Part shown: in pieces, positions 30,093 to 48,728 of the stretch | Numbering within the stretch: the first letter of the stretch is position 1 | How the letters are laid out: each line of letters opens with the position of its first letter | Assembly (NCBI RefSeq): GCF_003326675.1 | Contig: NZ_JPWF01000008.1 | Span: 1 to 64,000 of the forward strand | From: Thalassospira profundimaris | GTDB taxonomy: Bacteria; Pseudomonadota; Alphaproteobacteria; Rhodospirillales; Thalassospiraceae | Direction: 5' to 3' | Length of the DNA stretch: 64,000 nucleotides | Translations under genes and position numbers: made by a program | Notes under the pieces: model-generated | What the model was told of the DNA's origin: nothing | Seen by the model: the letters and a program-made list of their open reading frames with translations, nothing else | The model's database searches: none

Positions 30093-30235
30093 ATACAGGA
30101 CGCCTTAAGAACAGCTAAATTCCAGACGTGGGGCAACCTGATACCCGCGTCATTTCTCCACATCAATAAGTTCTATAATATATATTATGACAAAACCAAC
30201 TCATTTATATCTGTTGCGTTTATCTGGACATTCCA

Positions 30236-30297
30236 GCGCTACGCCCCACATGTGAGGCTTGTGTAGCGTAGCGGAACAAGGCTCACATGTGGGGCGC
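30236..30297. repeat. Long inverted repeat at left edge of the island
   Basis: Fifteen-base arms (30242-30256 and 30282-30296) match perfectly and extend by CTT after one mismatch. A second, competing pairing exists between CGCTACG before the left arm and GTAGCG copies in the loop. Positioned 32 bp before the first recombinase gene. It could be the element's end or recombination site, or an RNA hairpin regulating the recombinases. Confidence 0.6.
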
Positions 30298-30327
30298 GTC
30301 CGCCTTCCGGAGAAGGTTTACTGAACG

Positions 30328-31572: not shown

Positions 31573-33055
31573 TTTTGACGGTTTGATTGCATTCATCCAG
31601 CAGAACATTAACCGCTGGCCACCTCTTCCTGTACTAGCGCGTTATTATGACGACTACGCGGAATGTTATAACACACTAATTAATATCCGGACCGAAGATC
31701 GATGGCGCACTGAAATAGATGGAAGAGTTGAATACTTTGATTTTCGGCGGATTCCCGAAGGAGCCCGCGATTTATTCAAGCACTGGGTTATAAGTAAGAT
31801 AACCACCGGTTTGAAATGTCGAGTGGTTCATGCTTATTTGCAGCGAGTTGTGCTTTGGTGCTCACGTTACTCAATTAATAAATTATTATTAGTGATAATT
31901 TCGGGACCTGACGAAATACAACATTCTTGGCAGAGTTTAGTAATATCCACAGACATCAAAAAAGATACAGCAACGGCTATCAAAAGCTTATTAAGCTTCA
32001 TCTGCGAGAAAAATTTAGGTGCATGGCACCCATCTTATATGCAGAGAATTTCTGCTCTACCCACCCCAAAACTGGATTTGTACAAACGCATTAAATCAGG
32101 TGACTGCTTTATCTCTAGCAAAGATCAAACTTCTTTCGTGGAAAGGATAGATGCTACGGTTAAGGTTCTGAACAACAATAGCTCTAAAGAATCTCTATTT
32201 GAGATACAGTCGTATTGCATGCTCGTGCTCTGCTTTCAATATGGTTTGAGAGCAGGGCAAATAGCTCGCATATCTGTAAGTGATGTACGCTGTTTTGACA
32301 CTGGTGCTGTTCATATATCTTTCCCTCGTACAAAGCAGAGAAAGTCACATTTACGTGCTATGCGGCGCATCAAGCGTGAATGGTGCCCACTTTTTACAAG
32401 CTACCTTCAAACAAGAAAGCCCTCTTCTGACAAACTCTTTCACCTCAAACCTAATGAAGTAACAAAGCGTATCAAAGATTTCACAGAGGATATATGTGGC
32501 ACGCCATATACGCCGGGACATTTTCGGCATACAGCCAGTCAAAGATTGGTGGATGCTGGGGCATCATCTGTGTCCGTAGCGGAGTTCTTGGAGCATTCAA
32601 CGCTGAATGCGGGGACTGTGTATTACGATACATCAGCTAATCAGGCCGAATTGATTAACCAAGCGCTATCCATTTCCCCAATTTATTCAAGGATCGCCGA
32701 AGTCGCTCGTACAAAAACAATCACGAAGAGAGCACTTGGCGAGGCCCCCAGTGACACCATAGTAGCAGGTATGCCACATGGTATTCCTGTATCTGGAATT
32801 GGAAAATGCACTGTTGGTCAACCAAACTGCCAAAAACACCCCGTATTTTCTTGTTATAATTGTCGTCACTTTCTCGCGCTGAAGGACGAAGAAATACACA
32901 AACGGACGCTGACAGATTTTCGGCAGGTCGCACGTGAGTTTTACAACGCTGAACGCATCAGTGAAGTTTCTCCAGCATTTCTCCAGTTAAAAGATACAAT
33001 TGCGGCTGTGCAACGAACTCTCCAAGGCATTCAGGAGATGGATCGAGAGGGTTAA
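31553..33055 (+). CDS. Tyrosine recombinase, second of a trio, with C-terminal Cys cluster
   Basis: 500 residues. Catalytic features: Arg in YGLRAGQI (R233), box II TPGHFRHT, where the usual HxxR reads GHFR so the first His is shifted by one, then FLEHST (H348) and VYYDT Tyr pair (357/358). The C terminus carries a probable zinc-binding cluster KCTVGQPNCQKH...CYNCRHF. The start at 31553 follows GGGAGG and overlaps gene one. It resembles the second recombinase of known mobile trios (for example GmtY type); this is family-level recall, not a search. Confidence 0.82.
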   Translation: MSKPEYDFDGLIAFIQQNINRWPPLPVLARYYDDYAECYNTLINIRTEDRWRTEIDGRVEYFDFRRIPEGARDLFKHWVISKITTGLKCRVVHAYLQRVVLWCSRYSINKLLLVIISGPDEIQHSWQSLVISTDIKKDTATAIKSLLSFICEKNLGAWHPSYMQRISALPTPKLDLYKRIKSGDCFISSKDQTSFVERIDATVKVLNNNSSKESLFEIQSYCMLVLCFQYGLRAGQIARISVSDVRCFDTGAVHISFPRTKQRKSHLRAMRRIKREWCPLFTSYLQTRKPSSDKLFHLKPNEVTKRIKDFTEDICGTPYTPGHFRHTASQRLVDAGASSVSVAEFLEHSTLNAGTVYYDTSANQAELINQALSISPIYSRIAEVARTKTITKRALGEAPSDTIVAGMPHGIPVSGIGKCTVGQPNCQKHPVFSCYNCRHFLALKDEEIHKRTLTDFRQVAREFYNAERISEVSPAFLQLKDTIAAVQRTLQGIQEMDREG

Positions 33056-33059
33056 ACCA

Positions 33060-35399
33060 ATGGGAATCTCTGAATGTAAAACTCTAATTGCCAATGCTCA
33101 GCAACTGGCACGACAACGTGAGCTTAAATGGGACACGCCTATCGACGAAGAAGGAAACATTTTTAAGGAACACAGATGGAATTTAAACGCACTCATCGGA
33201 ACTCCACCTCCTCCTCTAATTTGGTTAGGGACCACTAGAATTACGGCAAATGCCGAAAAATCACTAAGGGAGATGTGTCTACAAAGAGATGTCCCCTGCC
33301 CTCAGCGATTATTCTTGGACGGGCACTGGTTAGACTTTTACAAAGCCATCATTATCAATGAGCTATTAGTAAAGAAGAACAAGCTTAGCCACGTAAATTC
33401 GAATATTGCCAAAATCATCCGGATCATTGGTGTCGTAAATCAAGCGCATCAACCTTGGGAAATCACCGCCGACGATGTTCGGCATTCTTACAACGTCGCA
33501 CTTGGCGTAGGCAGTTCGGGCAAGATTGCCGCGAATTTTGAAATGGTAGTGCGCCTTGTTTTTGACGGAATGCAAATAGCGGATACTCGTCCCCTTGCAC
33601 AGTATTGCTTACCCTACCGAGATCGACAGAATGCTCAGAATAAAGTAGATGAACGGCGCATTCATGAACGTACATTTCGTCAAACAGAAGGTGTTCGGAC
33701 CAAACTGTCGGAGCGCAAATCGAGTAAATCTTTGCCGGACAAGCGGGCTTTCTGGGAGCTCGTTGAAATCATCTTTACAGAACCACCCAAAACTTTTGCC
33801 GACTTCATTCGCTTTAGAATACTCCAGCTATGTATTATTACAGGACTTAGAATAGGTGAAGTCGTTTCGTTACCGGCCGATTGTTTGAGATGGCGGAGTT
33901 ACGCAACAAAGGATGGACAACCTGCAGAGAAGGAACACGGGATTTCGCAATCCCTTACATTGAAGTATTTCGCCGAAAAGACTCTTACTCAGCACCATAA
34001 ATCTTCTGTGATACTTTCAGAAAACATCCAGCATGTCCCTCCCCTATACGCAGAAGTTGTTGAAGATCTAGTGCAAAGTACGTTGGCAGCTACGTCCGTT
34101 ATGCGCAGTAATCTCGAACAGCAAATCAAACGAAATAGCCTGTTTCCAGATATTGACCAGTCGGCATTAATTCCCGCTTATGAGGCTTATGCCAGAGTTA
34201 CAGGAAACATTACGGTTAGTTCTCGACCTGTTAACCAGGAACTTATTGCTTTATATCGCGCGCATTATCAAGAAAGCGCACTACGGGACATCTATCGCGA
34301 GCAAGAAGATAACATCGCCGCCCGCGGCATAGACGTCACTCCCCAAATTCGTTCATTGCACACTCGCTGGCGAGAACACGTGGATGTATTTGACTGTCAC
34401 GGAGTAAAAGTTGAGGGGAGAGTGTCTTGGTCAAATGCCTACTTTAAGGTCTATCAAATTGAAGCCTTTCTCAGAAAATACCGGCGAGACAAAATGCCTG
34501 ATTGGATACCCGGCACACTGCATAATGGCTCTCCGATCTATCCATATCAGCATCTATTCCTAATGCCTGTTCGAGCGTTAGGTGAAGGCCGAAATGGTGG
34601 GATAACTGACCTTCTCCACTATTACGCAATAGGAAAATCCTCAGCGTCCGACATCATGCTAATGCTGGACGGAAAACGTAAAGACAGCATATTTGCGCGA
34701 TATCGCCCAAGCATTGCTGAGGATCTAGCAATTAAAACGCACTCATTTCGACATTTGCAAAATACCGAACTCATGCGCCTTGGCGTCGCTGACACGGTCA
34801 TATCCAAGCGCTTCAGAAAAGATGTACGTCATTCTGCTTCATATGACCATCGGAGTCTTTTTGAGGAACTACAACATATTGAAATCGAAGACGAACTTGT
34901 AAACGAGCTTAGTGAGCGCAGTCAGATCCTGTTTAAGATGATCAAGGAAAAGCAAATTGCTGGCCCAATAGTAAGCGAATTCTATAAACTTCAGGATACC
35001 GTGGGGTTCGATGACGCAATTACCTATCTGCAAACCGAGGCAGATGGCTTCCATGTTACCCCCTACGGGGTGTGCTTGAATGCTTTTACAGTTGATACAT
35101 GCCCAAACCACCTTGAGTGCTTCAATAACTGTAAACACCTAGCCCGGACGAAAGTTAAGTCGGAAGAAGACAACCTTAGAAAACTCAAAAGACGGTTATC
35201 CAGTTGGATTGATCAAATTGAGAGACAACCTATCGATGTTCGGCCACTCGGTTGGGAAAACCAGTTAACGCACGCTCAAACGCGATTAGACGCAGTGCAG
35301 AGAGCTCTCGATACCAAGCCGGGACAAAAAGTCTCACCAAATGGGGATGACCTATATGATGGTGGCTCCCTCTCTAACGCTTCCATCTTAGATGGCTGA
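33060..35399 (+). CDS. Large tyrosine recombinase, third of a trio
   Basis: 779 residues. Long N-terminal region without recognised domain, then the catalytic Arg in TGLRIGEVVSLP (about 260), box II KTHSFRHLQ, second His in DVRHSASYDHRS with the candidate nucleophile Tyr, and a C-terminal Cys cluster VCLNAFTVDTCPNHLECFNNC followed by a basic helix. Size and Cys tail are like TnpB of Tn554-type and GmtZ-type integrases. ATG at 33060, 4 bp after the previous stop; translationally coupled. Confidence 0.82.
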   Translation: MGISECKTLIANAQQLARQRELKWDTPIDEEGNIFKEHRWNLNALIGTPPPPLIWLGTTRITANAEKSLREMCLQRDVPCPQRLFLDGHWLDFYKAIIINELLVKKNKLSHVNSNIAKIIRIIGVVNQAHQPWEITADDVRHSYNVALGVGSSGKIAANFEMVVRLVFDGMQIADTRPLAQYCLPYRDRQNAQNKVDERRIHERTFRQTEGVRTKLSERKSSKSLPDKRAFWELVEIIFTEPPKTFADFIRFRILQLCIITGLRIGEVVSLPADCLRWRSYATKDGQPAEKEHGISQSLTLKYFAEKTLTQHHKSSVILSENIQHVPPLYAEVVEDLVQSTLAATSVMRSNLEQQIKRNSLFPDIDQSALIPAYEAYARVTGNITVSSRPVNQELIALYRAHYQESALRDIYREQEDNIAARGIDVTPQIRSLHTRWREHVDVFDCHGVKVEGRVSWSNAYFKVYQIEAFLRKYRRDKMPDWIPGTLHNGSPIYPYQHLFLMPVRALGEGRNGGITDLLHYYAIGKSSASDIMLMLDGKRKDSIFARYRPSIAEDLAIKTHSFRHLQNTELMRLGVADTVISKRFRKDVRHSASYDHRSLFEELQHIEIEDELVNELSERSQILFKMIKEKQIAGPIVSEFYKLQDTVGFDDAITYLQTEADGFHVTPYGVCLNAFTVDTCPNHLECFNNCKHLARTKVKSEEDNLRKLKRRLSSWIDQIERQPIDVRPLGWENQLTHAQTRLDAVQRALDTKPGQKVSPNGDDLYDGGSLSNASILDG

Positions 35400-35440
35400 T
35401 GTAGTTCTTTAACGCAAAGAACCTGCAGAGAGAAAAGACA

Positions 35441-35920
35441 ATGACCCTATCTCAGCAAGACTTGTTGGCGTTCGAAAGGCAGCTGAAGCAAATGTTAGCT
35501 GAAGATATCGACCTTTCTGCTCGTTCATGTGTTCGGCGTGGTTTAGTCAAAAACCCTTCAGATATTACTCGCATACCGGCTCGCCGAGATATTCTTGAAA
35601 AATATAGAAACTTTCAGAGAGAACGGCGAAGCAAAAATGATGACCGGCGTAAAGTCAAACAGCTAAAGAAAGAACTGGAGGGTGCGAGAAAAGAGATAAA
35701 AGAACTAGGTGAGCAACAACAAATGCTAATTGCATCCCACCGAGCGATGATTGCGATAATTGGAGAATACGGCGGGATGGCAGCTTGGAGAAGCTTCTTC
35801 GGTGAGTATGAAAAAGCGCTAACCTTCTTGGAAACCGCCTCCGGCCTTAGGCATGCTTCTGATCCAGCAAAAAGAAAGAGCGCGACAAAAGTCCAACGTC
35901 TTTCTGCGGAGCATGACTAA
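35441..35920 (+). CDS. Small basic coiled-coil protein of the recombinase cluster
   Basis: 159 residues, strongly helical. A basic stretch (ERRSKNDDRRKVKQLKKE) opens a coiled coil at about 60-95. Its position after three recombinases and its size parallel TnpC of Tn554 or GmtX of the Gmt trios, accessory proteins that assist or orient recombination. Not identified by sequence signature, so the assignment is by context. The last 40 bp contain one copy of a 15-bp direct repeat. Confidence 0.7.
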   Translation: MTLSQQDLLAFERQLKQMLAEDIDLSARSCVRRGLVKNPSDITRIPARRDILEKYRNFQRERRSKNDDRRKVKQLKKELEGARKEIKELGEQQQMLIASHRAMIAIIGEYGGMAAWRSFFGEYEKALTFLETASGLRHASDPAKRKSATKVQRLSAEHD

Positions 35921-36010
35921 ACGAGTTAAATGTCTAATATTTAAGGATTTATTTTCACCCTAAACAACTGAAAACCGCCGGTTGAACGATCTAACCGCGA
36001 CAAAAGTCCA
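35881..36010. repeat. 15-bp direct repeat at the 3' end of the recombinase cluster
   Basis: CGCGACAAAAGTCCA occurs at 35881-35895 (inside the small coiled-coil gene) and again at 35996-36010, 115 bp apart. The match is exact. It may be a recombination core or a duplication scar at the junction between the recombinase module and the cargo. Confidence 0.7.
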
Positions 36011-36279
36011 CTATCAAAGGTTCTTTTCATCCGATCAATTGGATCGACGATCTACTCCCTTGGATCATCGACATCCAATCCTGATTTCCTCTCGGAAACT
36101 GGTATTGAGGTAGCCGTGACGCACCCTTTACTTCCGCCAATCAGACAAGCGCGAACCTCGCCCGGTAACCATTTGGCGGAGCGTCAGTTTCACAGCCTGA
36201 GGCAACTTGTCGAAACAAAAACTTGCTACCAACTCATGTCGCGGTTTGGCCGATGATATTGAAGAGAGGAGGCTTGTTT
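35921..36279. other. Junction region between recombinases and cargo
   Basis: 359 bp holding the second copy of the 15-bp repeat, an IS66-type remnant (36028-36131), and about 150 bp of unassigned sequence before the SEC-C gene's stop. On the minus strand 36128-36240 reads as a short protein-like tail (KLPQAVKLTLRQMVTGRG) that may be the end of an interrupted gene. Confidence 0.45.
36028..36131 (+). mobile_element. IS66-type remnant, TnpC C terminus and right end
   Basis: Translating from 36028 gives HPINWIDDLLPW then IIDIQS and a stop at 36082-36084, matching the conserved HPIxRIDELLPW tail of IS66-family TnpC. It is followed by GGTAGCCGTGAC and a GTAA-type terminus at 36131 (read inward on the minus strand as GTAAAGGGTG). 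Only about 100 bp survive. Its orientation is plus, with the end facing the cargo. Confidence 0.65.
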
Positions 36280-39200
36280 TCAGTGCGGTCGTGGTGGAAG
36301 CGCCAAAATGCGATCTGAGCAGTTGTTCATCATCCAAAAGTCAAGACCATCAATTCTTACGAATTGGGTGTTGACCTCGTATGGGGGGAAGCGCATCCAC
36401 CAATAAATTTCTTTGCTTATGTACAATTCGTCAATGGATATCTGCCTAGTGGTAGGCGCTGGCCATTTCAGAAGCTCACGCAACCGCTCCATGTTTGTTG
36501 AGAGAAAAGCCCTGCGCCTCTCGATCTTGGCAAACTGCCCCCTGTCAGGGGAAATCCCAAAAATCCGCTCGCGCAATCGTCTTGCATCCTTTGGGCAAAA
36601 GGGAGGTTGGTTGTACTTACATTCGCCAACTAGCCACTTTCCCTCTTGCGGCCAGTAAGCGAGGACGTCGAAGTCACCAACATCGTCAAATTTTTCCTCC
36701 GGAAAACGGCGATTAAAGTCGATGCCTTTAACGGAGAACGAGGTGTAACTCGAGACGATTTCGAAAGCCAAGTGCTCTAGCCCCTTTTCATGAGCTTGCT
36801 TAATCGTCCGGACCTGCTTCTGGATCGATGGCCAATCATAGTCAGCCGGTAGGTAGCCACTCATGACGTTTCCCGCCCAAATTTTTTGTGCGTTCTGCGC
36901 AGATGCTGCGCCCCAAATTAGGATATCTTGGTCTAGGGGAACTAGTGGCTTGATTGTATATCGTCCGCCGCGTTTTTTATGCTCCCAAATGGGGACATCC
37001 CCTTCGTCGACATCCTTCCCGATCAGCCTCCGAATCTCGGTCGGGCGCAGGCTAAGGAATTGAACGATGCTATCCGCCTCATCTGCGCTTATTCCGTCAA
37101 TGAACGAGCAGAGCGCCTGCACAATGTTGCTCTTTGTTTCACGGTAGGAAAGTTGGAAACTCGATCTCCCATGAAGTGTTTCCCACTGCATCAAGACTGA
37201 CAGAGCGTCCATCATGTGGCTGAAGCTGAACTGAGTATCTCTGAGGAAAGCTGCATCAAAATCCTCTTTGTATCCATTATCGGCATTCTGCGGCATTGTA
37301 TCAGCGCTGGAATCGAGGTCGATACCTAGGCTGTAGCTCGCCTGTTCTCGTTTGAACGCCTCTTCCTGGGCCACCTGTTGGTCGGAATAAAAGACGTTCG
37401 GCACCAATTCCTCGCTGATTTCGATCCCTCCGGTAGCGATTCCGTTGTGAAGCGCGTCGCTGGCGCTGTAAAGGACCAGAAGCCAGTCGACATGCGCTAG
37501 AAGTTGTAGGATGTCGTCATCAGACGGCATAACGTCCTGTGTCGACGGCAGGCTGAGGGAGCTCTCCAACAGAAAGCGGAGATTGCGACTTTCTGTTACG
37601 AGGTCGTGAAGGGCATCAGCAAAAGCTTGTTCTCGATCATAACTGACTTCGTGCCTAAGACTTTGTTCCAGGCGATCTCGTGTTCGCTGAAATTTTACAG
37701 ACCACGCGTCATGTTGGGCGACGCAGTACGACAGCACCCGATTCTTGTTGAAGCGACCAATTTGCTTGTGAAGTTGATCACGAAAGGCATTGCGTGCCAA
37801 ATCGATCAACCTTTTTGCCTCATCGAGCTCAAATCGGCCGGGCTTGATACCGTGCTCTTTAAAGATGATCGCAATGGCTTTACGAGCAAGCTTGAACATA
37901 TCTGGTCGTGGTTTTTGCGGATCAACGAAGTCTGGGACATCGACGATTCGCGAGGATCGTGAGAGCATGAACCGTGGTTTGCCCGGCGCCACCGACCGCA
38001 CCTTCTGCATCAGCATTGCGTCCATGGGCTCTCCGAGAAATGCTGCCATTCCTTCCAAGATGGAACAGGCGCAACTGACCTCGAAGCTGTTGTCGACCGG
38101 ATCTTCAAAGTGGGCCAGAGCAGATGAAAGATTTATGGAAACACCGACTCTTATGGATGTGTCGTCGCTACCGTCGTCGATCTGCTCCCATCCTTGAAGT
38201 AAGGGTATATCGTCACCTTCAACCTGTGGTCCAGACGCAAGCATTTCCGCGTTAGCCCTGAGTTCGACAATGATCCGATGCCGGTGAAACATCTCGGCGG
38301 CCTCGAAATCACCCCGCATGCGGTAAATGGCGTCGGCAACACAGTGCGTGAAGAGTTCTAATACTCTGATGTCCAAGTTATCAAGCTCAAGTTGAATGTG
38401 GTGGACGAGAAGCAATGTGCATCCTGACACCGTCATTGCCCAAGCCTGCGTGGGCTGTGCCTTCGAGGTCATATCCAGAATTCCATCCTCGCCAGGCTCA
38501 ATGACCCAACTCCTTGGCTCATCGTTTGGGAAACATGCCGGTGCTATGCTCCAGAATTTGGTTAACTCCTCGTATCGCCAGTTCGATCCACTGTGCGGAT
38601 CGATCATGACGAGGTTCGGTTCAATCGCTCCATCTATCAGGACGCCATGGGAATAGCGAAACGCTGCAAATTTGTCCGTGAGGCTAAGGAGGCCCAGGTG
38701 GAGGGCGCCTTGATTTGCCTTGATATAAGCCCAAAACCGATCGAACTCAGACAGGTCCTTAATTGAGTCGAAAATCGACACCAAATCAGCAATTGGAAGA
38801 ATCTGAGCAGATTTCGTTTCGGGAGGTATAAAGTTGCTTCCCTCAGTAGATTCCTGCGGTAAGGCGGCCAGAATCACGATCTCGTCCGGCTTTATGGCGT
38901 TGCCATCGACGCCCGAAAATTGGAGACCTTGGCTTGTGCCGTCAATCTGGATCCCCCAGTCCTGGCGAGTTACCAGATCTAGAAGCTCGGCCTCGATCGC
39001 GGGAAGGCGCTCTAAATCGCCCTTGCTCAAGATGACGACGAAATAAAAGCAGCTATCACCCCGTAAGAAAGCGGCGAAAAGCGTCGGTATAATTCTATTC
39101 TCGTCACGAACCCAGAATGGTCCCCTGATAATCGTACCGTCAGCTATTCTGCTAGCGAGAAATTCGCTGACCTGTTGCGTGAAATTGTAATGCCCCCTGA

Positions 39201-40146
39201 AAGGTAAGGCTTCCGCCCGATGCCCCCAAAAGTCGACGATGTTGGTTACAGCGCATCTTGGTGCTACCGGGAATAGAAGCTCACCGATCTTAACAAAAAG
39301 AGCTGGGAGCAGTTTGCCGGTCATCAAGGCATCCCCAAAGCCGAAGAAGCTCTTTGGAAAGTCCGATTTTCCAAGCTCCACAACCAATTCCGAGCTGAAT
39401 TGCCCGGGTCTTGTGAAACTGGTTCCAACAGAAAGAAGTGTCGCCCGGCACACTTGCCAAAATGGTTCCGGGGGAATCTCGATATGCCCCGGAGAAATGC
39501 CGTCTATGTCACCGACGAGCGATTTATCGATGGAAGTTAAAATGCTATCTTGCAGAAGGACCCCGGCAAACATGTCGTCCAAAGCGGCCTGCTTATCTGC
39601 ATTCGTGAGGCGAAAGGCTTCGATGTAATCCGGAACGCGCTCAAGCGAGGTGCCATAAAACAGGCGCAGTGCTCGCCCCTGCCAGTAACTCTTGACTTCG
39701 CCCCAATCTGCTTCGGGAACATAGTCCTCAAGCATAGGAAACGACGGAAGCAGTTCGTGGATGTGTGTTAAAGCCTCACAAAATGTTTTATAGTCCTTCA
39801 CTCTGGATTCAGACTTAAATCGATTTGGTGAAATTGCAGCAAAAATGCCGAACGCAAACAGGTGTTTGATCTGGCTTGAAATATTCGGAAGCCAAAGATC
39901 TGAAACGCCGAGTGTCAGAATGACGTCTTCAGCGGAATACGCTGTGAATAGCGCCTCCAACGAGGACCGCACTTTATTAAATTGCAGGTCGTGAGGATCG
40001 TCGGCGGGCGAAGACGAGCCTATCATGCCAAGAACCTGGTGGAGATTAGGAGGCGTCGGTTCCTCAAAACCGGACCGTAAGCAGCATTTTTTATATTTCT
40101 TGCCGCTCCCACAGGGGCACGGATCATTCCGACCAATTTTGCTCAC
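36280..40146 (-). CDS. Giant SEC-C / PD-(D/E)XK-like nuclease protein
   Basis: 1288 residues. The N terminus is a textbook SEC-C zinc motif (C10, C12, C21, C22 in [16 protein letters not shown]). A long middle of unknown fold, rich in helices and without clear ATPase motifs, fills about residues 30-1100. Near the C terminus [20 protein letters not shown] followed by K gives the D-Xn-E-x-K pattern (D1158, E1175, K1177), the hallmark of restriction-like nucleases; a Glu about 30 residues earlier may complete it. GTG start with a GGAGG site 8 bp upstream. Lies in island cargo, 170 bp after the PIN gene on the same strand. Function unassigned; a defence nuclease is an inference. Confidence 0.75.
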
Positions 40147-40316
40147 ACTGTTCCTCCGGTCATTAGTAGTTATGATTGTACGCTCATCAAGCCTAGAGCA
40201 TTGGTCGGCATCCTCCTAAAGCGGTGTTACTGATTTTGTTCATTAAAGTTCCTTAACGGACAAATTCACAGCCGAAACAATTGCTGTAATCTCGGTAATA
40301 TAGCCAGCATGCACTT

Positions 40317-41201
40317 TCACGAACCAATATAGGGTTTGGTCCCGTTGTTTAGCGCGGCAAGGGCTTTCTGCTCTTCCGCTACTTTGTCTGATGCATAGAT
40401 CAGAAACTGTTGGATGTCCGGCCAAACATCGCCGATCCCCTGCCCAATGGATTTGATCACGGCACTAAAACGCGCGCGGCTCTCAGGATGGGCCAAGACA
40501 AAGATCACCCCAACCAACAGCAACAGCTTCATCCAGTCAGGCATTCGTGCGGCCATATCGCGAAAAAACAGCATGACTTTTCTCAGGACCGAAAGGCTTA
40601 TGTTGGAAATAACAACACCGCCAACTTTGATCGAAACTGAATAGCTTGCTGACCGGGCATAGGCGCGGATTGTCATCACCAGTTTTCGTTCAAGCCTAGT
40701 ACCACCAAGCGCATCAATATCTTTATCGTTGCTTAAAATGCCTAGCGCGGATATGGCGTTTTGTAGTTGCACATAAGGTGCATACTTGGGGTCCAAACTC
40801 TTTGTCGTGACCTCCTGCGCTTGATCAAATCGCGCGTCAAATATGATAGCCGCCTTATAGCTTTTCCAACTGGATCGCAAAGCCTCCTGCGATATTTTCT
40901 TTTTTTGCGATACCTGCGGAATGGTGCTTGTAAGCATCTCAGTTTCAAGCCAGCTCGGCGCGCAAAGCCTTACGACACCTGATTTAACGACCTCCTGAAG
41001 GGCGGTTTGTTCGAGGTGAGGGTTTTGATGCTTGTGCAGCAAGTCGCCAATAGCGATGTTTGCATCAAGCACGATATCGAACCTTGGTAGCTGCCCTGTC
41101 GCTTGCTCAAGAGCAGGATGTAAATCAATAAGCTGGCGCAAAGAACTCAGAATGGCTGAGTCGAGATAATTCGCCGGTTGATATGATTGCGAATCAAGCA
41201 T
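40317..41201 (-). CDS. PIN-domain ribonuclease-like protein with membrane segment
   Basis: 294 residues. PIN-fold acidic residues: D46 in VLDANIAI, E86 in APSWLETEML, and D159/D161/D163 in LSNDKDIDALGG. A hydrophobic helix at about 223-238 (WMKLLLLVGVIFVLAHP) and an amphipathic tail follow, so the nuclease domain may be tethered to the inner membrane. ATG at 41201 with AAGGGAG ribosome site. Unlike VapC toxins it is twice as long and has no small antitoxin gene adjacent. It may pair with the downstream SEC-C nuclease. Confidence 0.7.
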   Translation of the reverse strand: MLDSQSYQPANYLDSAILSSLRQLIDLHPALEQATGQLPRFDIVLDANIAIGDLLHKHQNPHLEQTALQEVVKSGVVRLCAPSWLETEMLTSTIPQVSQKKKISQEALRSSWKSYKAAIIFDARFDQAQEVTTKSLDPKYAPYVQLQNAISALGILSNDKDIDALGGTRLERKLVMTIRAYARSASYSVSIKVGGVVISNISLSVLRKVMLFFRDMAARMPDWMKLLLLVGVIFVLAHPESRARFSAVIKSIGQGIGDVWPDIQQFLIYASDKVAEEQKALAALNNGTKPYIGS

Positions 41202-41821
41202 TGCGCCGCTCCCTTTCTATCCACTGGCCCATAGTGCATCCTGAAAGCACTAGGTATCCGTCAAGTGTAAAACGCCAAAAAGCCTAACAGCACATTTCGA
41301 TATTTTCTTTGGGTTTTCTGATGCTTGGGCCTGCTCTCGATGAATTCATGTCCCTGACATTACCACAATCACATCTGAATTATAGGTTGTATCTCCCTGG
41401 GTATGCCTCTCTTTTTGCTTTCATGGAGGGCATTCAATGCAGAACCAAATTGATCTGGAGACACTTCTCAAGTAGGCGCTTAAACAGGCCATGAGAGATC
41501 GCAGATACTTCTATGTTTCGTGCTATCTCAAACCTGCTATTGAAACACTCCAAGAGTAAAAAGAAGTGAAAAAAGCGTTCTGATATCAAGTTGTAACATT
41601 GAGCAAACACAGACTGCCCGGCACGTTGCCGGGTAGGTTCTTGAGAGGGTGATATCGTCAAACACTAACGCATCAATTTTGACGTATTAACCGGTATTTT
41701 CGACGTTAACGTATCATTTTTGCGACATTATCTCAGGCACCTAATAGCAGTCATTATCAGTAGCGCACCTGTTTGGCTGATTCGCGAACACCCTCAGCAC
41801 TCAGACTCGGCTTACTAGCAT
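41202..41821. other. Intergenic, PIN upstream region with AT-rich repeats
   Basis: 620 bp with no convincing gene. A plus-strand segment near 41436-41560 reads like a decayed peptide (two in-frame stops). It also holds the direct repeats described at 41667-41725. Promoter(s) for the PIN gene are expected here. Confidence 0.4.
41667..41725. repeat. AT-rich direct repeats, possible operator array
   Basis: TAACGCATCAATTTTGACG at 41667 and TAACGTATCATTTTTGCGA at 41707 share 15 or more of 19 positions at 40-bp spacing. A related segment (ATTTTCGACGTTAACG) lies between. Such phased copies near an XRE gene may be its operator. Confidence 0.4.
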
Positions 41822-42190
41822 TTAGTCATCATCGAATACCGGCGCAGTATCATCGAAACCTGTCCAAACTGGCACCTCACTTTTGCTCCGAACACGCTGG
41901 CGATCTGCAATTGGCCGAGCACGACGTGGCGCAAACGGGCTGTCACGTGGTTCCGGAATATAGGCGGCCATTGCCTCGACCAGGTTCATCGCTTTGAGAA
42001 CGCGCAGGAATGTATCGAGTGTGGCGCCCTTGCCATTGAGCAAGCGGCTGAGAGTTGGAACAGATATACCGGCTTCATCGGCGAGTTCCTGCTGGGTAAG
42101 TTCAAGATGAATCCGGTATCGATTCAGTCGCTGCGCAATATCCTGATGGATCTGGTGGGTGGAAGCGATCTGATAGTCGAGTTTAGACAT
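41822..42190 (-). CDS. XRE-family transcriptional regulator (HipB-like)
   Basis: 122 residues. Helix-turn-helix in LTQQELADEAGISVPTLSRL with the antitoxin-type continuation LLNGKGATLDTFLRVLKAMN and a Pro/Arg-rich C-terminal tail. This architecture is common for HipB-like partners of HipA-type kinases, but no toxin gene lies next to it. ATG at 42190 (MSKLDYQIAS); the frame opens 9 codons earlier. It follows the NagA-like gene by 68 bp in the same direction and has a decayed second copy at 46.7 kb. Confidence 0.8.
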   Translation of the reverse strand: MSKLDYQIASTHQIHQDIAQRLNRYRIHLELTQQELADEAGISVPTLSRLLNGKGATLDTFLRVLKAMNLVEAMAAYIPEPRDSPFAPRRARPIADRQRVRSKSEVPVWTGFDDTAPVFDDD

Positions 42191-42258
42191 GATCCGGTTT
42201 CCTGCGACAGTTTGCATCAGGCCGAGCTGAGCTTGCAGAGCTGCTCACTGTGGTTGTT

Positions 42259-43377
42259 CTAATTCAATTGATGAGTTTCTTTCACGTTGAATTGGTTATC
42301 AAAACTCACCAAATCCGTTCCGTGACCAGCCATAAGTAAACGCTGCTCCCGCCCCACTAGTGCGGCGGGAACCGTGGTTACCATATTAATGGCGCTTGCC
42401 ATGGGCACACCAACTTTTTGAACCATAAACTTCAACCCAGCCTGTATGCTAGAGTTCGCTCCACCTATCGTTCCTGTTTTCGTAACTAGTGAGTCTGTTT
42501 TATCCAGCATGACGTCTTCCAAACAATCGATGCCATCCGTGACTATCGCGTCTGACGGCATAATATCACTTACGAGAAATACTTGATCGGGCCAGCAAGC
42601 CCGCTTGAGGACTTGGATTGTTTCACGTTGGAGGTGGCGTCCATCTGCTATTATCGAGGCCATTCGCGATCGATTGCCAATCAACCAACCAAGCGCATGA
42701 GGCATCCTTGATGAAAGCGGAGGCATTCCATTGAATAAGTGGGTGCAACCGTGTATTGCGGGCGGAGATGACTTTACCCAAGAACAATCTGTGTGGCCTG
42801 CTAAAACAGTCACATTGGACATCGATAACAAATCCTGCAACTCGTTGTATGGTATAATCTCCGGTGCCACGGTTGCGATTACAGGGCAGTATAAAGAAAC
42901 CGCCCGCACGAACTCCACATGAGCTTCACTAGAAGCCTTGATACGTTCGCTTGGGTGGCCCCCCTTAAAGTCCGGATTTATCCACGGACCTTCAACATGA
43001 ACACCGCTAAATCCAAATTTCCCCACTGTCGTTTGAACTACATGCTTGATTTGGTTGAATTTTGTTGATGGAACCGATGTCAAAGCTCCAAACCAACTAG
43101 TAGTTCCTTGTTGTCGAAGGAGCGTTCCGATCTCTTCGATACCGTCTCCGTTCGTGACATTTTCAAACAATGTGTTGCCGATCCCATTGACCTGTAGGTC
43201 CATCCAGCCTGCTGAAAGGTTATGGTTTGTGATGTCGATCAGTTCCTCATGATCGGATAAATCGACCTGATCCATCCTACCAATCGTTTCGATCTTGCCA
43301 TTCACGGTATCAATGTATCCGTGAGGGATTACTTGTTCGTGCGTGTAAATATCTGCATTGATGAAAATCTTGCGCAA
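42259..43377 (-). CDS. NagA-like N-acetylglucosamine-6-phosphate deacetylase
   Basis: Amidohydrolase of 372 residues. NagA hallmarks: GWMDLQVNG (the family's degenerate first metal motif), GVHVEGPWINPDFKGGH (metal Glu), VLAGHTD and CTHLFNGMPPL (metal His residues) and catalytic Asp in FLVSDIMPSD. It should hydrolyse the N-acetyl group of an amino-sugar phosphate or related compound. Last enzyme of a five-gene operon (11 bp after the acyltransferase). No nagB, nagC or PTS genes are nearby, so a role in GlcNAc catabolism is doubtful. Confidence 0.82.
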   Translation of the reverse strand: MRKIFINADIYTHEQVIPHGYIDTVNGKIETIGRMDQVDLSDHEELIDITNHNLSAGWMDLQVNGIGNTLFENVTNGDGIEEIGTLLRQQGTTSWFGALTSVPSTKFNQIKHVVQTTVGKFGFSGVHVEGPWINPDFKGGHPSERIKASSEAHVEFVRAVSLYCPVIATVAPEIIPYNELQDLLSMSNVTVLAGHTDCSWVKSSPPAIHGCTHLFNGMPPLSSRMPHALGWLIGNRSRMASIIADGRHLQRETIQVLKRACWPDQVFLVSDIMPSDAIVTDGIDCLEDVMLDKTDSLVTKTGTIGGANSSIQAGLKFMVQKVGVPMASAINMVTTVPAALVGREQRLLMAGHGTDLVSFDNQFNVKETHQLN

Positions 43378-43388
43378 TTAAGTTCTCC

Positions 43389-43925
43389 CTACCAATTCTC
43401 TTCGTCATTCCATCCTTCTAAGGGATTCCGTTCAATCTTTTGAATCGGACGGCAGGGACTGCCAAATGCCAGAACGCCAGATGGCACGCTATGAAACACC
43501 AATGATCCGGCTCCAATGAATGCCTTATCACCGATACTAACTCCCGCCGTAACCACGCAAGCTGCACTAATGATAACTCCAGATCCAATGATAACCTCTT
43601 TGAACTCTTCTCCAGTATTTCGGAGTGGCCCTTGGTCAGAGCGAATGTGCTCTTGACTTCCGACAAATGTAAGAGGTCCGATTGCCGTAGATTCACCAAT
43701 ATTCACGTCGCCATGACCATATATGACTGTATTTTCGCCAATACTCACACGGTTGCCTAAAGTTATCTTCCCACCATATGATACTAACCTAACACCAGCC
43801 TTGATATTGCAGCCGTTCCCAATTTCAATAACGCCAGTGCGCCCCGCGTTAAGTGAAGCCCGACCGCTTATTTGGGTCGAACTGCCTATGCCAACCGAGC
43901 CTATTTTTTCAAAACCTAGTGACAT
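43389..43925 (-). CDS. Left-handed beta-helix (hexapeptide) acyltransferase
   Basis: 178 residues built almost entirely of hexapeptide repeats (for example GRTGVIEIGNGCNIKAGVRL, GNRVSIGENTVIYGHG) ending in the typical GVLAFGSPCRPIQKI cap of sugar O/N-acetyltransferases. The extended loop around FVGSQEHIRSDQGP lies where the acceptor site usually sits. ATG at 43925 follows the phosphatase-like stop by 2 bp. Paired with a deacetylase in the same operon it suggests editing of an amino-sugar acyl group. Confidence 0.85.
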   Translation of the reverse strand: MSLGFEKIGSVGIGSSTQISGRASLNAGRTGVIEIGNGCNIKAGVRLVSYGGKITLGNRVSIGENTVIYGHGDVNIGESTAIGPLTFVGSQEHIRSDQGPLRNTGEEFKEVIIGSGVIISAACVVTAGVSIGDKAFIGAGSLVFHSVPSGVLAFGSPCRPIQKIERNPLEGWNDEENW

Positions 43926-43927
43926 GA

Positions 43928-44566
43928 TCAGGAAATCTCTGGCGGCGGACGCTGTGTGCGCTGCTCCGTCCACGGGCAGCAAATATCGTTCCGTGTAAAT
44001 TCAACCCATTCGAGATTTTCCCAAGGCCTTTCAAAATATCCACCACCAACGATGGGCTCTCTGCCTCGCAAGACATTCCACATGAGAACCAATGTAGATC
44101 GTGTTCCTACGAAAACACATTGCTCACCCTCTTGCTCAAGGTATGATAGAAAATGCTGTCCGTTTTTATAAAATTCGCTAGGTTCAGTAGCGTTAGGAAT
44201 TTTAAGCATTTGAATTTCGTCCAAGCCCCTCCGCCACCGATCCATCGCCAATGCATGAGCCGGGAACCGTTCTCTTGCTTCGGTGCGGGACAGGCCATCT
44301 AGTATCCCCAAATTGTATGGAGGCAGCAGCTCGGTGACCTCAGGCTCAACATTAATATCGGCACATATAATAGACGCAGTCTCTAAACACTGAGGTTTGG
44401 GTATCACTAAAACTCGGCTAATCTTACCGAAGTAATCTCGCAAGTCTGATGCAAATGTTTTAGCTTGAGTTCGTCCTTTTTCAGTTAGTTGAGATCCACT
44501 TCCCCCATGCCGATCCTGAACATTTTTTTCAGCCTGTGCATGCCGTACTAGGACTATCCTTCTCAT
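43928..44566 (-). CDS. Histidine-phosphatase-superfamily protein with degenerate active site
   Basis: 212 residues. Begins with the phosphoglycerate-mutase-like strand MRRIVLVRHAQAEKN, keeping the R-H phosphate site. Other expected residues are not seen: the second Arg (in the usual SPxxRxxQTA) is Gln or Cys in KPQCLETAS, the acidic donor is Pro in LLPPYNLG, and the second His of the VSHG box is replaced in CVFVGTRSTL. Catalysis is therefore questionable; it may bind a phosphorylated ligand or act on an unusual one. Two bp separate it from both neighbours. Confidence 0.75.
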   Translation of the reverse strand: MRRIVLVRHAQAEKNVQDRHGGSGSQLTEKGRTQAKTFASDLRDYFGKISRVLVIPKPQCLETASIICADINVEPEVTELLPPYNLGILDGLSRTEARERFPAHALAMDRWRRGLDEIQMLKIPNATEPSEFYKNGQHFLSYLEQEGEQCVFVGTRSTLVLMWNVLRGREPIVGGGYFERPWENLEWVEFTRNDICCPWTEQRTQRPPPEIS

Positions 44567-44568
44567 AA

Positions 44569-45210
44569 TCAGATCGTGAGGTATGGGTATTTTTTTAAGT
44601 ACAGGTCTGCGATAACAAACATCTTGTAGTAGTAGGGGTCTACTCGCGGGATGAAGTCTTCCGGAGAAATTTCTTTAGAAATATGGCTCCAGTCTCCAGA
44701 ACGATTTTTTTCAATGCCTGTAACTTCGATAGAAGGTAACTTTCCAGTAAAGAGATCTAACCCCTTGGCGATCGGCAAAGAGATCATTCCGTCTAACTCA
44801 ACTTTATCGAGAACAAGATCCTCAATTTTGGGTGCATTTGGATAGAGAAAGACATGTGCAAATTGCCTATTAATAATCTCGCCAGCTTTAGCTACATCAT
44901 GCTTAACACCCAAACTAATAAGATCTTCGAACGCAACCCGAATTCCAACCTCCTCTTCGATCTCACGCACACCGTCACTGACTTTTTCGCCAGCAGAAAG
45001 ATGACCCGCTGCTGAGATATCCAAGTAGTCCGGAAACAAGGCTTTGTCGGCGGCGCGTTTCTGGACTAGCATGCTTGGCTCTCCGGATAAGCTCAACATC
45101 CAACAGTGGAACGAATGGACCCATAATCCATTGGCTCGAGTCACGCTTTTTGGCGCAGTGCCAAGCGATCTATAGTTCTCGTCGAAATAGTCAAATTGTT
45201 CTTCAGCCAT
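44569..45210 (-). CDS. NUDIX hydrolase (IPP-isomerase-like/YfcD group)
   Basis: 213 residues. Intact Nudix box GHLSAGEKVSDGVREIEEEV then GI, preceded by the YfcD/IDI-like lead FDENYRSLGTAPKS and LWVHSFHCWML. Start at 45210 (MAEEQFDY) has GAGGTGCCAA upstream, 8 bp after the TPR gene's stop; a longer start at 45222 overlaps that stop. Acts on a nucleoside- or prenyl-diphosphate; substrate open. Middle of the five-gene operon. Confidence 0.83.
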   Translation of the reverse strand: MAEEQFDYFDENYRSLGTAPKSVTRANGLWVHSFHCWMLSLSGEPSMLVQKRAADKALFPDYLDISAAGHLSAGEKVSDGVREIEEEVGIRVAFEDLISLGVKHDVAKAGEIINRQFAHVFLYPNAPKIEDLVLDKVELDGMISLPIAKGLDLFTGKLPSIEVTGIEKNRSGDWSHISKEISPEDFIPRVDPYYYKMFVIADLYLKKYPYLTI

Positions 45211-45218
45211 TTGGCACC

Positions 45219-46373
45219 TCACAGTTTATCAAGTAATTCGTAGGGTACAGGAGTTTCTTGGATCATTTCGTTTGCTTGGGCTTTGTATGCAACCGCGGCC
45301 TCAGGATCTTCTTTAAGCTCCGCGATCTTCGCTAATCCATTCAAATTGCGGATAATTTCGTCTCTCCGACCGACGCTCTGTGCCTCCCTAAGCCCTCTAT
45401 GGAATACTGCTTCAGCCTCGCCGCGGCTCGTCGAGTCGCCGATTCTCAAAAGAATTTTGCCTCGAAGCGCGTATGATCTTACGGATCTAGTGACATCCCC
45501 GTTTTGATCACGAATATCCGCAGACTCTTGAGCAAACTTTAGAGCCTCTTCATATTTTCCTTCAAACAAGAGAGCGACGGCAGTCGCATATTTTATCCCA
45601 CCTAGCATTTCGGCTTTCTGCTTATCGTCATCGATCTCATCAGCGGCTAATTCCGATTTTTGCAGAGCTTCATACACCTCCTTGAAACGCCTATCGATCG
45701 TCGCAATGCCGGCTAGATGCCGATGCGCCTTAGAGACCCAGTAGGGGCTTCCAACGCGCTCCGCGATCTTTAGTCCGAGCTCGATCTTTTCTTTAGCTAA
45801 GGTGCGTTTTTCCATAGCCACCAGCGTCCAGCCAAGATCATCAATTAAAGCCGCTATTTGCTTATGATCATCGCCCAAACGTGCGGCCGCATTTGCGGCA
45901 GCGTCACCAACCGCAATTCTTGCTCGCAATAGTCCCTCCACCCACAAATGGCGGGACAGTGTATCTCTAAGCCTAAGTACATGCCGATCACGCCCTTTTT
46001 CGGAAAGCGATGATATGTATAAAGAAATCCCTTCAATGAACGATGCTTCGGGGGACACGGGCACCATACCATTCCTTAGCTCGGTGAGTTCACTTTGTAC
46101 CTGGCTGAGATTGGACCTTAATTGATCTCGCTCCGGTTCCAGCTCCAAATGAGCCCTGCGCAACACAAAAACCCACTGTGCCGAGACAAATAACAAACCG
46201 ATAAAAACAACCTTTGCCAGCAAAGTGGCTCCAACATTTTCATCGAACCAAGTCCGAAAGTCATCCCAACTATAGAAAGCAAGAAAACCAAAGACGATCG
46301 GAATCAGTCTTGAAAATCCCGCAATCCAAGTGTCCGATAAAAGAAATTTGATAGCTTTCTTGACCAAACCCAA
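45219..46373 (-). CDS. Membrane-anchored TPR protein
   Basis: 384 residues. Two N-terminal TM helices (about 15-35 and 50-72), a coiled coil (about 75-100, ELEPERDQLRSNLSQVQSEL), then a cytoplasmic array of tetratricopeptide-like helical hairpins (about 140-375) with recurring A-x-x-x-Y/A pattern. No enzymatic motif. First gene of the operon, so it may be the sensor or scaffold for the four downstream enzymes. No known family name recognised. Confidence 0.72.
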   Translation of the reverse strand: MGLVKKAIKFLLSDTWIAGFSRLIPIVFGFLAFYSWDDFRTWFDENVGATLLAKVVFIGLLFVSAQWVFVLRRAHLELEPERDQLRSNLSQVQSELTELRNGMVPVSPEASFIEGISLYISSLSEKGRDRHVLRLRDTLSRHLWVEGLLRARIAVGDAAANAAARLGDDHKQIAALIDDLGWTLVAMEKRTLAKEKIELGLKIAERVGSPYWVSKAHRHLAGIATIDRRFKEVYEALQKSELAADEIDDDKQKAEMLGGIKYATAVALLFEGKYEEALKFAQESADIRDQNGDVTRSVRSYALRGKILLRIGDSTSRGEAEAVFHRGLREAQSVGRRDEIIRNLNGLAKIAELKEDPEAAVAYKAQANEMIQETPVPYELLDKL

Positions 46374-46551
46374 CCGCCTAAGTTTCTATTGCGACATGTA
46401 AAATGCTACTTTTAGGGGAAGAAAGTCAAGCTGCGGCGAAGCCGGACCGACAATTAGGGGCAGGAATCATTAATGCCACCATATAACGATAGTGGCGATT
46501 GTTATTGCGGCAACGAAGGTGCTGGCAGACTAAGTTGAACTCTTCTCAGTT

Positions 46552-46690
46552 GTAAGCATCCACTCACGGCTACCTTGACAGGTTTTCAACACCCGTTTCA
46601 GGGAGATGGTCAGGCGTGGAAATCGATGTTCCAGGGTAGTAGTTCGTCGATTCAACTGATCGGATGACCGGCAATACGATCAACGACGAG
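46552..46690 (-). mobile_element. IS66-type remnant, TnpC C terminus and right end
   Basis: On the minus strand the sequence reads VDRIAGHPIS, a stop, then IDELLPWNIDFHA and a stop at 46610-46612, the conserved TnpC tail of IS66-family elements with one nonsense codon. Beyond it lies a GTAAGCATCC terminus at 46552. The inner 12 bases TCACGGCTACCT of this end are shared with the remnant at 36.1 kb, in inverted orientation. Confidence 0.7.
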
Positions 46691-46898
46691 ACGTCGCGTT
46701 AACGGACTGTCACGTGGTTCCGGAATATAGGCGGCTATTGGTTCATCGTCGCTTTAGGAATGGATCCAGTGTGGCGCCCCTGCCATCGAGCAATCGGCTT
46801 AGGGTTAGCCCAGATATGCCTGCTTCATCAGCGAGTTCCTGTTAGGTGAGTTCAAGGTGAATGCGGTATCCTTTCAGTCGTTCTGCAATATTCAGATG
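46691..46898 (-). pseudogene. Decayed copy of the XRE regulator
   Basis: Nucleotide similarity to 41925-42150 over about 200 bp, starting with an identical CTGTCACGTGGTTCCGGAAT block. It carries an internal deletion and a nonsense codon where the intact copy has LTQQEL (here LT-stop-QEL). Same orientation as the intact copy, so the two form a direct repeat flanking the five-gene operon. Confidence 0.8.
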
Positions 46899-47117
46899 AA
46901 CCAACAAAAAGTGAAAACCACCATCGACAGAGAAATTCATGGTAAGATGGTCGATACTACTCAATGTAAGGCCCTTTGGTGTAGGAACCTTGGGCCAATG
47001 GGATTCTTATCAAACGAATGGGATTTCAAATGTCCCAAACAATCCCGTTAAACGCCCTAAACGCATATTCGGCATCATCCTTGGCAAGGTCGAACTGTTG
47101 GATCTGAGGCTACGAGA

Positions 47118-47227
47118 AATCACAACAAAAGTCATTTAGAAGCACTTTTTTTGTAAGTTGTGATTTAAAGTAAAAAACGCAGTATAGCATTGTTTTATAT
47201 AATCAAAGTTTCGGCCAAAATCACAAC
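47118..47227. repeat. Three copies of AAATCACAAC at the island's right edge
   Basis: Direct copies at 47118-47127 and 47218-47227 and an inverted copy at 47157-47166. The first and the inverted copy can form a hairpin around a T-rich loop. Lies at the border with core gene 47319; it may be an end of the element or a terminator. Confidence 0.45.
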
Positions 47228-47318
47228 GTAAATTTTGGTGAGACACTTTGACAAATTTTATATTGCCGGAAATATGATATACTCCAATCACTTAGCCTTC
47301 AGTGCTCGCAGATTGTGT

Positions 47319-48728
47319 TCAATCGGATGCTGCTGCCGTTTCAAATCGGATGCTGAAAATACAGCCGCTATGCCCTTGCGGCTCCGACAACTTGACTTTG
47401 GTTTCGTGACGCATTGCGATTTCTTTGACGATTGAAAGACCGAGACCGCAGCCGTCTTCCTGCTTGTTGTCATTGATCCGATAGAACCGTTTGAACACAT
47501 CTTTATGGTGTTCAACAGGAATACCCGGTCCATTGTCCTCGACGGTTAGTCTGACGGCGTCCTGGTGATCTATTTTCTCAAGCCGTACGGTAACGGCACT
47601 GCCATCCGGGCAATAGATCAACGCGTTATGCACCAGGTTTTTAAGAAGCTCTTCGATCAGTGTTGCGTCGCCCAGGATGAATGCTGGCTCTGTCAGGCCT
47701 TCATACCCAAGATCTATGCCGCTTTCGATCGCGGCTGGTACTTTTGCACTGGTGACGGACCGTGTGATCTCGCAAAGATCAATCCTTTCAAATGGCCGTC
47801 CGGCAAGTCCTTCGGGTGCTGCACGCGCTGACGCCAGCAACTGATTGGCAAGATGCGATGTTTGCCGGGTTGATGCCGCAATTGTTGCCATGATCTGCCG
47901 CATCTTTTCGGAATCTTTTTCACGCTGACCAAGCTCTGCCTGTGTACGAAGTGCTGCCAATGGCGTGCGAAGCTGGTGTGCGGCGTCTGCTGTAAACCGC
48001 TGCATTGTTTTCAGACTGTTTTCAAGCCGTCCGAACAACTGGTTAATGGCCCCGACCAGATGCCGTACCTCGGTTGGAACGTCGTGCAAAATCGGCCGCA
48101 AATCCGTTGGTGACCGCCGATTTAAGGCTTCTTCAAGTCGCGTAAGCGGTTTAAGGCCCTGACCGATACCGAACCAGACAATGATCGCAGCCAACATGAT
48201 CAAAAGAATTTGGCGCGCTGCTGCACTTGCCAGAATATCTTCGCTCAGGCTGGTGCGTGTTCCCATGGTTTCGGCAACAAGCACGTGAAAACGCGTCGCT
48301 TTGCGGACACTTGCGACATAACGGGAAATTGCGCCAATCCGAACCGGCTCCCCATTATAGACCGCATCATAAAAAACCGGTTCTTCGTGGAGTGGTAAAA
48401 ACTGTTCCGGCACGGGTGGAAGGTCTTCGTAACCGGTGATGAATTCGCCCTGCCCGGTACTGACCTGATAGAAAACACGGTCTTCTGCCGCACTGGTCAA
48501 CATCTCAAGCGCAACATAGGGCACATCGACTTCGATCTTGCCACCGATCAAAACAACACGGTCGGCAATTGCCAATGCAGAACTTAAAAGTGCGCGATCA
48601 AACGCCTGATTTGTCGACTTAATTGCGTTGCTTCGAACTTCAAGCAGCATCAGAGAACTGATCACCAAGAGCGGGATCAGCAACCATATGACAAGCCTGC
48701 GCCTTAGGGATCCGTTACGCCATTTCAT
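47319..48728 (-). CDS. Sensor histidine kinase, TctE-like
   Basis: 469-residue membrane kinase. N-terminal TM (about 10-30), periplasmic 2CSK_N-type domain (ALAIADRVVLIGGKIEVDVP..., about 30-165), second TM near 168-185, HAMP, phosphoacceptor His in FTADAAHQLRTPLAALR, N box HNALIYCPDGS, G1 DNGPGIP and G2 EDGCGLGLSIV. Overlaps the regulator gene by 4 bp. The N-terminal domain type is that of TctE kinases that control tricarboxylate uptake, fitting tctCBA 5 kb away. Confidence 0.92.
   Translation of the reverse strand: MKWRNGSLRRRLVIWLLIPLLVISSLMLLEVRSNAIKSTNQAFDRALLSSALAIADRVVLIGGKIEVDVPYVALEMLTSAAEDRVFYQVSTGQGEFITGYEDLPPVPEQFLPLHEEPVFYDAVYNGEPVRIGAISRYVASVRKATRFHVLVAETMGTRTSLSEDILASAAARQILLIMLAAIIVWFGIGQGLKPLTRLEEALNRRSPTDLRPILHDVPTEVRHLVGAINQLFGRLENSLKTMQRFTADAAHQLRTPLAALRTQAELGQREKDSEKMRQIMATIAASTRQTSHLANQLLASARAAPEGLAGRPFERIDLCEITRSVTSAKVPAAIESGIDLGYEGLTEPAFILGDATLIEELLKNLVHNALIYCPDGSAVTVRLEKIDHQDAVRLTVEDNGPGIPVEHHKDVFKRFYRINDNKQEDGCGLGLSIVKEIAMRHETKVKLSEPQGHSGCIFSIRFETAAASD

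Follow-up and report, generated by a model that had tools for sequence, protein, structure and literature searches.

A probable five-gene operon and its products

The first 64,000 nucleotides of contig NZ_JPWF01000008.1 of Thalassospira profundimaris (assembly GCF_003326675.1), the whole of which we call the window, contain five confirmed open reading frames (ORFs) that follow one another on the minus strand between positions 42259 and 46373. They encode a tetratricopeptide repeat (TPR) protein, a NUDIX hydrolase, a histidine-phosphatase-fold protein, a left-handed beta-helix (LbH) acetyltransferase and a NagA-like deacetylase (Table 1). A sequence-only reading of this stretch had taken the five genes for a single unit, and the ORF positions agree: the intergenic gaps are 8, 2, 2 and 11 bp when counted with the NUDIX ATG at 45210 and the LbH ATG at 43925. 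Since all five ORFs are intact and only 2–11 bp apart, their spacing is far from chance, and judged by this arrangement they very likely form one unit. The first TTG of the TPR gene (46373) directly abuts AGGCGG, and the second (46367) has AGGCGG six bases upstream and is the more likely start from its sequence context; the start of the NagA-like gene at TTG 43377 is supported by AGGGAGA six bases upstream. A helix-turn-helix (HTH) gene lies 41 bp beyond the last of the five and is possibly a sixth operon gene or a mere neighbor. The GC content of the five genes is 0.45–0.48, compared with 0.52–0.53 in one chromosomal gene on each side of the island described below. A scan with Rfam matched only the tRNA.

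Table 1. Positions of the operon genes and associated features in the window (ends of the island are approximate)
Feature	Position	Strand	Basis or remark
TPR protein, ~382 aa	45219..46367	-	Pfam TPR_12, hydropathy, AlphaFold2
NUDIX hydrolase, 213 aa, IPP-isomerase/YfcD-like, RExxEExG kept	44569..45210	-	Pfam, NCBIfam, PDB, alignment
Histidine-phosphatase-fold protein, 212 aa, probable pseudo-phosphatase	43928..44566	-	Pfam, alignment
LbH (hexapeptide) acetyltransferase, maltose/galactoside/NodL type, 178 aa	43389..43925	-	Pfam, NCBIfam, alignment
NagA-like deacetylase of divergent sequence, 372 aa, begins with TTG and retains the catalytic and phosphate-binding residues	42259..43377	-	NCBIfam, alignment
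HTH (Cro/C1) gene	41822..42217	-	ORF, Pfam
Island	about 30190..47400		absent in genome G007
ginABCD-like operon, tyrosine-recombinase genes in positions one to three and a small gene in the fourth	30328..35920	+	Pfam, GInt layout
SEC-C protein, 1288 aa	36280..40146	-	Pfam
PIN_12-like protein	40317..41201	-	below cut-off
Transposase C-terminal remnant	~46586-46667		beside broken HTH copy; by reading
Broken second HTH copy (stop and frameshift)	46690..46898	-	nucleotide comparison

The TPR protein was identified by its Pfam match (TPR_12, E 6.3e-9). It has two N-terminal hydrophobic stretches, at residues of about 10–34 and 43–76, that are predicted by hydropathy to be membrane helices, so that of the earlier label "membrane TPR" the repeat part is confirmed and the membrane part is a hydropathy prediction. 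In the AlphaFold2 model, residues ~110–373 form a confident helical-repeat superhelix and residues 1–109 have a predicted local distance difference test score below 50; a fold search with the model returned generic TPR proteins (LGN, kinesin light chain, Rap) and no functional hint. The NUDIX protein (Pfam NUDIX, E 7.7e-5) retains REIEEEVGI, with the catalytic acids present and in agreement with the REUXEEXGU pattern. Its NUDIX box has a spacing of x6 before this motif, where x7 is usual, and the box is one residue shorter (E-x6-RE) in all six aligned members, i.e., the window protein and five relatives. The best PDB and NCBIfam matches are to the YfcD/type 1 isopentenyl diphosphate (IPP) isomerase branch, from which the window protein differs by the shorter box, a C-terminal extension, and scores below the NCBIfam cut-offs. 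The short-box subfamily is common to Alphaproteobacteria and Bacillota.

The histidine-phosphatase-fold protein is a good match to its fold (Pfam His_Phos_1, E 5.7e-17), and here the earlier description as phosphatase-like held for the fold and failed for the catalytic set. The RH motif is kept, but the second Arg is replaced by Gln, the Glu by Pro and the second His by Thr, so that three of the four elements that we take to be catalytic are changed and the protein does not qualify as an active branch 1 histidine phosphatase. The alignment suggests a catalytically dead, probable pseudo-phosphatase. In the same alignment the homolog from Thalassospira marina lacks the Glu only, and the Radiobacillus homolog keeps all catalytic residues.

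The LbH protein (Pfam Hexapep, E 4.9e-10) has family-level matches of the WcaF/HpsU/NodL type. It resembles the maltose/galactoside O-acetyltransferases and NodL in its hexapeptide beta-helix and in an aligned His, which is presumably catalytic, and it differs from them in that its gene has no nodulation or sugar-uptake context. The NagA-like protein matches Amidohydro_1 below the Pfam cut-off (E 0.0011) and scores 161.4 bits against NCBIfam nagA (TIGR00221), under the curated cut-off of 225.65, although the homology is full length. When it is aligned with PDB entry 1ymy, the Glu, three His, Asn, Arg, a further His and the Asp, which we take to be the metal, phosphate-binding and catalytic (Asp) sites, are all kept, and one neighboring Ala is a Gly. 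It is a divergent second NagA copy, and the alignment shows its known catalytic residues to be retained. The canonical nagA of the host (348.2 bits; 26% identity to the window copy) is encoded on another contig (C13), where it adjoins, by eye, a gene for a SIS-domain protein and a regulator gene. The usual nag partners do not accompany the window gene: as the sequence-only reading had stated, no nag gene is nearby, none being found among 28 further window proteins in a Pfam scan that covered the operon, three downstream neighbors and these 28, a subset of the window's ORFs. As to its companion statement, that cell-surface glycan genes are missing nearby, the window does carry genes of peptidoglycan type (SLT_2, lytic transglycolase, Peptidase_S11) at 21.6–25.1 kb, beyond the island.

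A related operon on a T. marina plasmid and the distribution of the proteins

The closest counterpart of the operon is found on plasmid pCSC3H3 of T. marina, where CSC3H3_RS24175–RS24195 encode a TPR protein, a NUDIX protein, a methyltransferase, a protein resembling tryptophanyl-tRNA synthetase (TrpRS) and a histidine-phosphatase-fold protein. This operon is also packed, with one 13-bp gap followed by overlapping gene ends, and conjugation genes adjoin it. The two operons share the TPR, NUDIX and histidine-phosphatase genes (27%, 30% and 25% identity between the respective proteins), whereas in T. marina the methyltransferase and TrpRS-like genes replace those for the LbH and NagA-like proteins, and the T. 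marina phosphatase differs in keeping the second Arg and the second His. The TrpRS-like protein (positions 11399–12448 of locus L006) contains HMGH and KMSKS-like motifs by eye and scores 30.2 bits against TIGR00233 (cut-off 176.75); neither Pfam at E 0.01 nor the viral contigs gave a match to it. These features point to a very divergent aminoacyl-activating enzyme, and a working tRNA ligase is doubtful.

We saw all five genes together nowhere else in the collections searched; the full set is a single case. The sequence-only reading had itself named a lack of such co-occurrence as what would speak against it, and in these collections co-occurrence is lacking for the five genes but present for a three-gene core: only the TPR, NUDIX and histidine-phosphatase genes recur together, once, and with other partners. 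The genomes sampled at the levels of order, class and phylum are each a selection from a larger group, and beyond Pseudomonadota the coverage consisted of plasmids, phages, viral contigs and one contig scan with the NagA-like protein. A TPR search of 100 related genomes matched three: the source genome, T. marina and genome G087. The last match (E 9e-4) was dropped, being a repeat-rich TPR protein beside what is by eye a malate-synthase-like gene. A two-sequence TPR profile matched one of 398 genomes in the phylum sample and one of 385 in the class sample, the source genome both times; these scans scored at most four candidates per genome, and T. marina presumably lies outside both samples. 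The TPR protein had no plasmid match at E 1e-5 and no viral-contig relative.

With the NUDIX profile at E 1e-30, two of 297 genomes of the order were matched, T. profundimaris and T. marina, both within a TPR operon. Because both sequences went into building the profile, their scores are no test of it; the informative point is that no NUDIX copy occurs outside such an operon in the order sample at this threshold, still a matter of two cases. In the class sample the same threshold returned 10 of 385 genomes, own included. Among plasmid relatives of the NUDIX protein, neighborhoods were read for six of 11 records: a histidine-phosphatase gene adjoins in Radiobacillus, a HAD hydrolase is encoded nearby in Cytobacillus and Phaeobacter, and in Lysinibacillus and Stenotrophomonas there is no phosphatase nearby and the gene order is the same in both; the sixth record is the T. 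marina operon described above. The Cytobacillus spongiae record (L009, 8004–10722) has the HAD hydrolase gene followed by the NUDIX gene, with an annotated tryptophan--tRNA ligase ~1 kb downstream, an arrangement that faintly echoes the T. marina set. Viral contigs yielded one NUDIX relative, without partners, and phages only a partial match in two Listeria records.

For the other proteins, a relative of the histidine-phosphatase-fold protein in Agrobacterium has no operon partners. LbH relatives are found in 113 plasmid records, all below 60% identity, with NodL among the matches listed (25 of 113). NagA-like relatives are found in 218 plasmid records, likewise all below 60% identity, with a maximum of 32.9% in the best 40 of the 218. 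In the class sample at E 1e-40 a NagA-like protein is encoded in three of 385 genomes, own included; the other two proteins are 29–30% identical to it and have no operon partners within ~4 kb. The contig scan gave one relative (28%, in Mannheimia), and none was detected in viral contigs. A literature search joining nagA, Nudix and histidine phosphatase with gene cluster found no publication, and among the papers listed by looser searches none looked related from its title.

A probable GInt-type island carrying the operon

The operon lies on an island of ~17 kb that is missing from a sister genome (G007), in which the flanks lie ~200 bp apart. The site is between a gene of the metallo-beta-lactamase fold (29319–30092) and a two-component system (47319–49417). 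Of 11 sister regions compared, three show both flanks (L080, L084, L085) and eight only the two-component-system side. At the same site genome G006 has, by eye, an HTH gene together with a dehydrogenase-like one, and genome G001 has sugar ABC transporter genes.

At its left end the island has three consecutive tyrosine-recombinase genes (PF00589, E 3.3e-9, 2.5e-15 and 0.0033, the third below the cut-off) followed by a 159-aa ORF (35441–35920) whose only match, spectrin-like, is below the cut-off, as befits a small domainless GinD. The GInt layout, according to Bardaji et al. (2017; PMC5385486), comprises tandem tyrosine-recombinase genes and a small gene, with cargo after the fourth gene, and the same paper describes GinC without some typical domains. 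Our island resembles GInts in its terminal set of three tandem recombinase genes and a small domainless gene, in its cargo, which follows the fourth gene, and in the island-free site of a sister genome. The 10–11 nt imperfect direct repeats at the ends of GInts were not clearly found by a simple scan: the AT-rich left end is conserved and there is no clear right-hand copy. The ginABC assignment is by Pfam domains and layout. On this basis the operon looks like cargo of a GInt-type island.

The cargo consists of the operon and the genes for the SEC-C, PIN-like and HTH proteins. On one side of the operon is the HTH gene and on the other its broken copy (83% identity over 143 nt, 90% over 51 nt). 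The region from 36.0 to 46.7 kb is enclosed by an inverted repeat of 82 nt (78%); one of its arms, the transposase-like remnant, reads like the C terminus of an IS66 transposase. Pfam places the SEC-C motif at the N terminus of the SEC-C protein, and a nuclease-like D..ExK motif can be made out by eye in its C-terminal part. Its PADLOC matches (PDC-S12, E 4e-7; E1-E2; E2) do not extend beyond the ~22 residues of the SEC-C motif, and a longer match to "Upx" is marginal (E 0.03); from these features it is possibly a defence nuclease on the same island. The PIN-like protein, whose gene separates those of the SEC-C and HTH proteins, has a moderately hydrophobic stretch near residues 188–240.

A possible metabolite-tailoring module and its alternatives

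Our preferred, though tentative, interpretation is that the operon is a horizontally acquired module for tailoring an amino-sugar phosphate or nucleotide, built on an exchangeable core of TPR, NUDIX and histidine-phosphatase-fold proteins. As a membrane-anchored scaffold or sensor, the TPR protein would gather the enzymes, and the NUDIX hydrolase would cleave a diphosphate-linked substrate, such as a nucleotide sugar, to a phosphorylated product. The kept sites of the NagA-like and LbH proteins lead us to propose that an amino-sugar phosphate is deacetylated and O-acetylated; the NagA-like enzyme would strip the N-acyl group and the beta-helix enzyme would add an acetyl group to the sugar. The histidine-phosphatase-like protein, having probably lost catalysis, might bind a phosphorylated ligand or be a structural or regulatory subunit, and the core would accept another enzyme pair, as with the methyltransferase and TrpRS-like protein of T. 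marina. While the genes, their spacing, their island context, the recurrence of the core and the kept or lost residues are observed directly, we infer the substrates, the order of steps, the formation of a complex and a benefit to the host. The amino-sugar-phosphate chemistry of the sequence-only reading accordingly stays plausible on the side of the deacetylase and acyltransferase, but its phosphatase looks dead.

Several observations weigh against this proposal. The core rests on two loci only, and the T. marina TPR protein lacks the membrane helices by hydropathy. Promoter-like sites are at chance level (five found, 6.0 expected), with none before the TPR gene, and six terminator-like sites fall within the operon on the operon strand; on both strands seven were found against 4.5 expected (sd 2.3), so that both kinds of site are close in number to shuffled sequence. 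The class sample contained 12 NUDIX matches outside the window, of which one copy with an inner stop (genome G145) was left out, and the 11 alphaproteobacterial neighborhoods read contain no relative of the TPR, histidine-phosphatase, LbH or NagA-like protein at E 0.01, some of them ending at contig ends, two (L029, L034) being short contigs, and one (L027) having its NUDIX gene hidden by the ORF filter. The NUDIX subfamily, lacking these partners in the other alphaproteobacteria, may have an ordinary role. The T. marina methyltransferase matched over 39–40 residues near the NUDIX gene in L030, L032 and L028 (E 2.6e-5, 8.7e-4 and 3.1e-4), in a gene directly upstream in the first two and some kilobases off in the third; we take these matches to be a common methyltransferase motif, yet they count against a clean picture of a solitary NUDIX gene.

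The operon could instead be a loose accessory set of unrelated enzymes gathered on the island with no joint pathway, for which the layered insertions around it (broken HTH copy, transposase-like remnant, inverted repeat), the partnerless NUDIX relatives and the seemingly dead protein would speak; the tight spacing of five intact ORFs and the recurrence of the three-gene set in T. marina at 25–30% identity make this unlikely. Also unlikely is a role in defence or inter-bacterial immunity, in which a phage attack or a toxin would cause the TPR sensor to trigger enzymes that alter a nucleotide or amino-sugar metabolite. The SEC-C and PIN-like proteins on the same mobile island, the rare and patchy distribution of the operon genes, and the conjugation genes beside the T. 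marina relative fit such a role, but PADLOC gave no match at E 0.1 to any of the five proteins, no toxic effector domain is among the Pfam matches, the TPR and NagA-like proteins have no viral-contig relatives, and in two sister genomes the site holds genes that look metabolic by eye. The defence or signalling system suggested by the sequence-only reading thus has no direct evidence in its favor.

The operon might also serve resistance or detoxification by modifying and hydrolyzing an amino-sugar or nucleotide antibiotic, with the T. marina TrpRS-like protein as a spare resistant target; detoxification commonly makes use of acetyl transfer, deacetylation and NUDIX cleavage. We consider this quite improbable: the TrpRS-like protein, far below its family cut-off and with no Pfam match, is doubtful as a working ligase. 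There is very little to recommend ordinary N-acetylglucosamine (GlcNAc) catabolism or lipopolysaccharide (LPS)/exopolysaccharide synthesis, although the NagA and WcaF/HpsU/NodL-like matches evoke them. The host has its canonical nagA on another contig, the window copy is divergent and below the cut-off, and no glycosyltransferase or sugar transporter is among the Pfam matches of the island proteins. We therefore rejected a known GlcNAc or LPS pathway, in keeping with the sequence-only reading, which had seen no tie to the canonical one.

A broader claim, to which we give rather low credence, is that the TPR, NUDIX and histidine-phosphatase-fold proteins form the core of a small-molecule system that is mobile, modular and so far undescribed, with exchangeable enzyme pairs (acetylation/deacetylation in one case, methylation/aminoacyl activation in the other) that would make or erase a specialized phosphorylated metabolite. 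If the core is not real, the locus is a documented example of a GInt-type island with an operon of orphan enzymes as cargo. If it is real, it would define a mobile metabolic cassette of exchangeable parts in which the TPR scaffold and the histidine-phosphatase fold, the latter probably dead in one of the two cases, stay constant, and would give a handle for finding more such cassettes.

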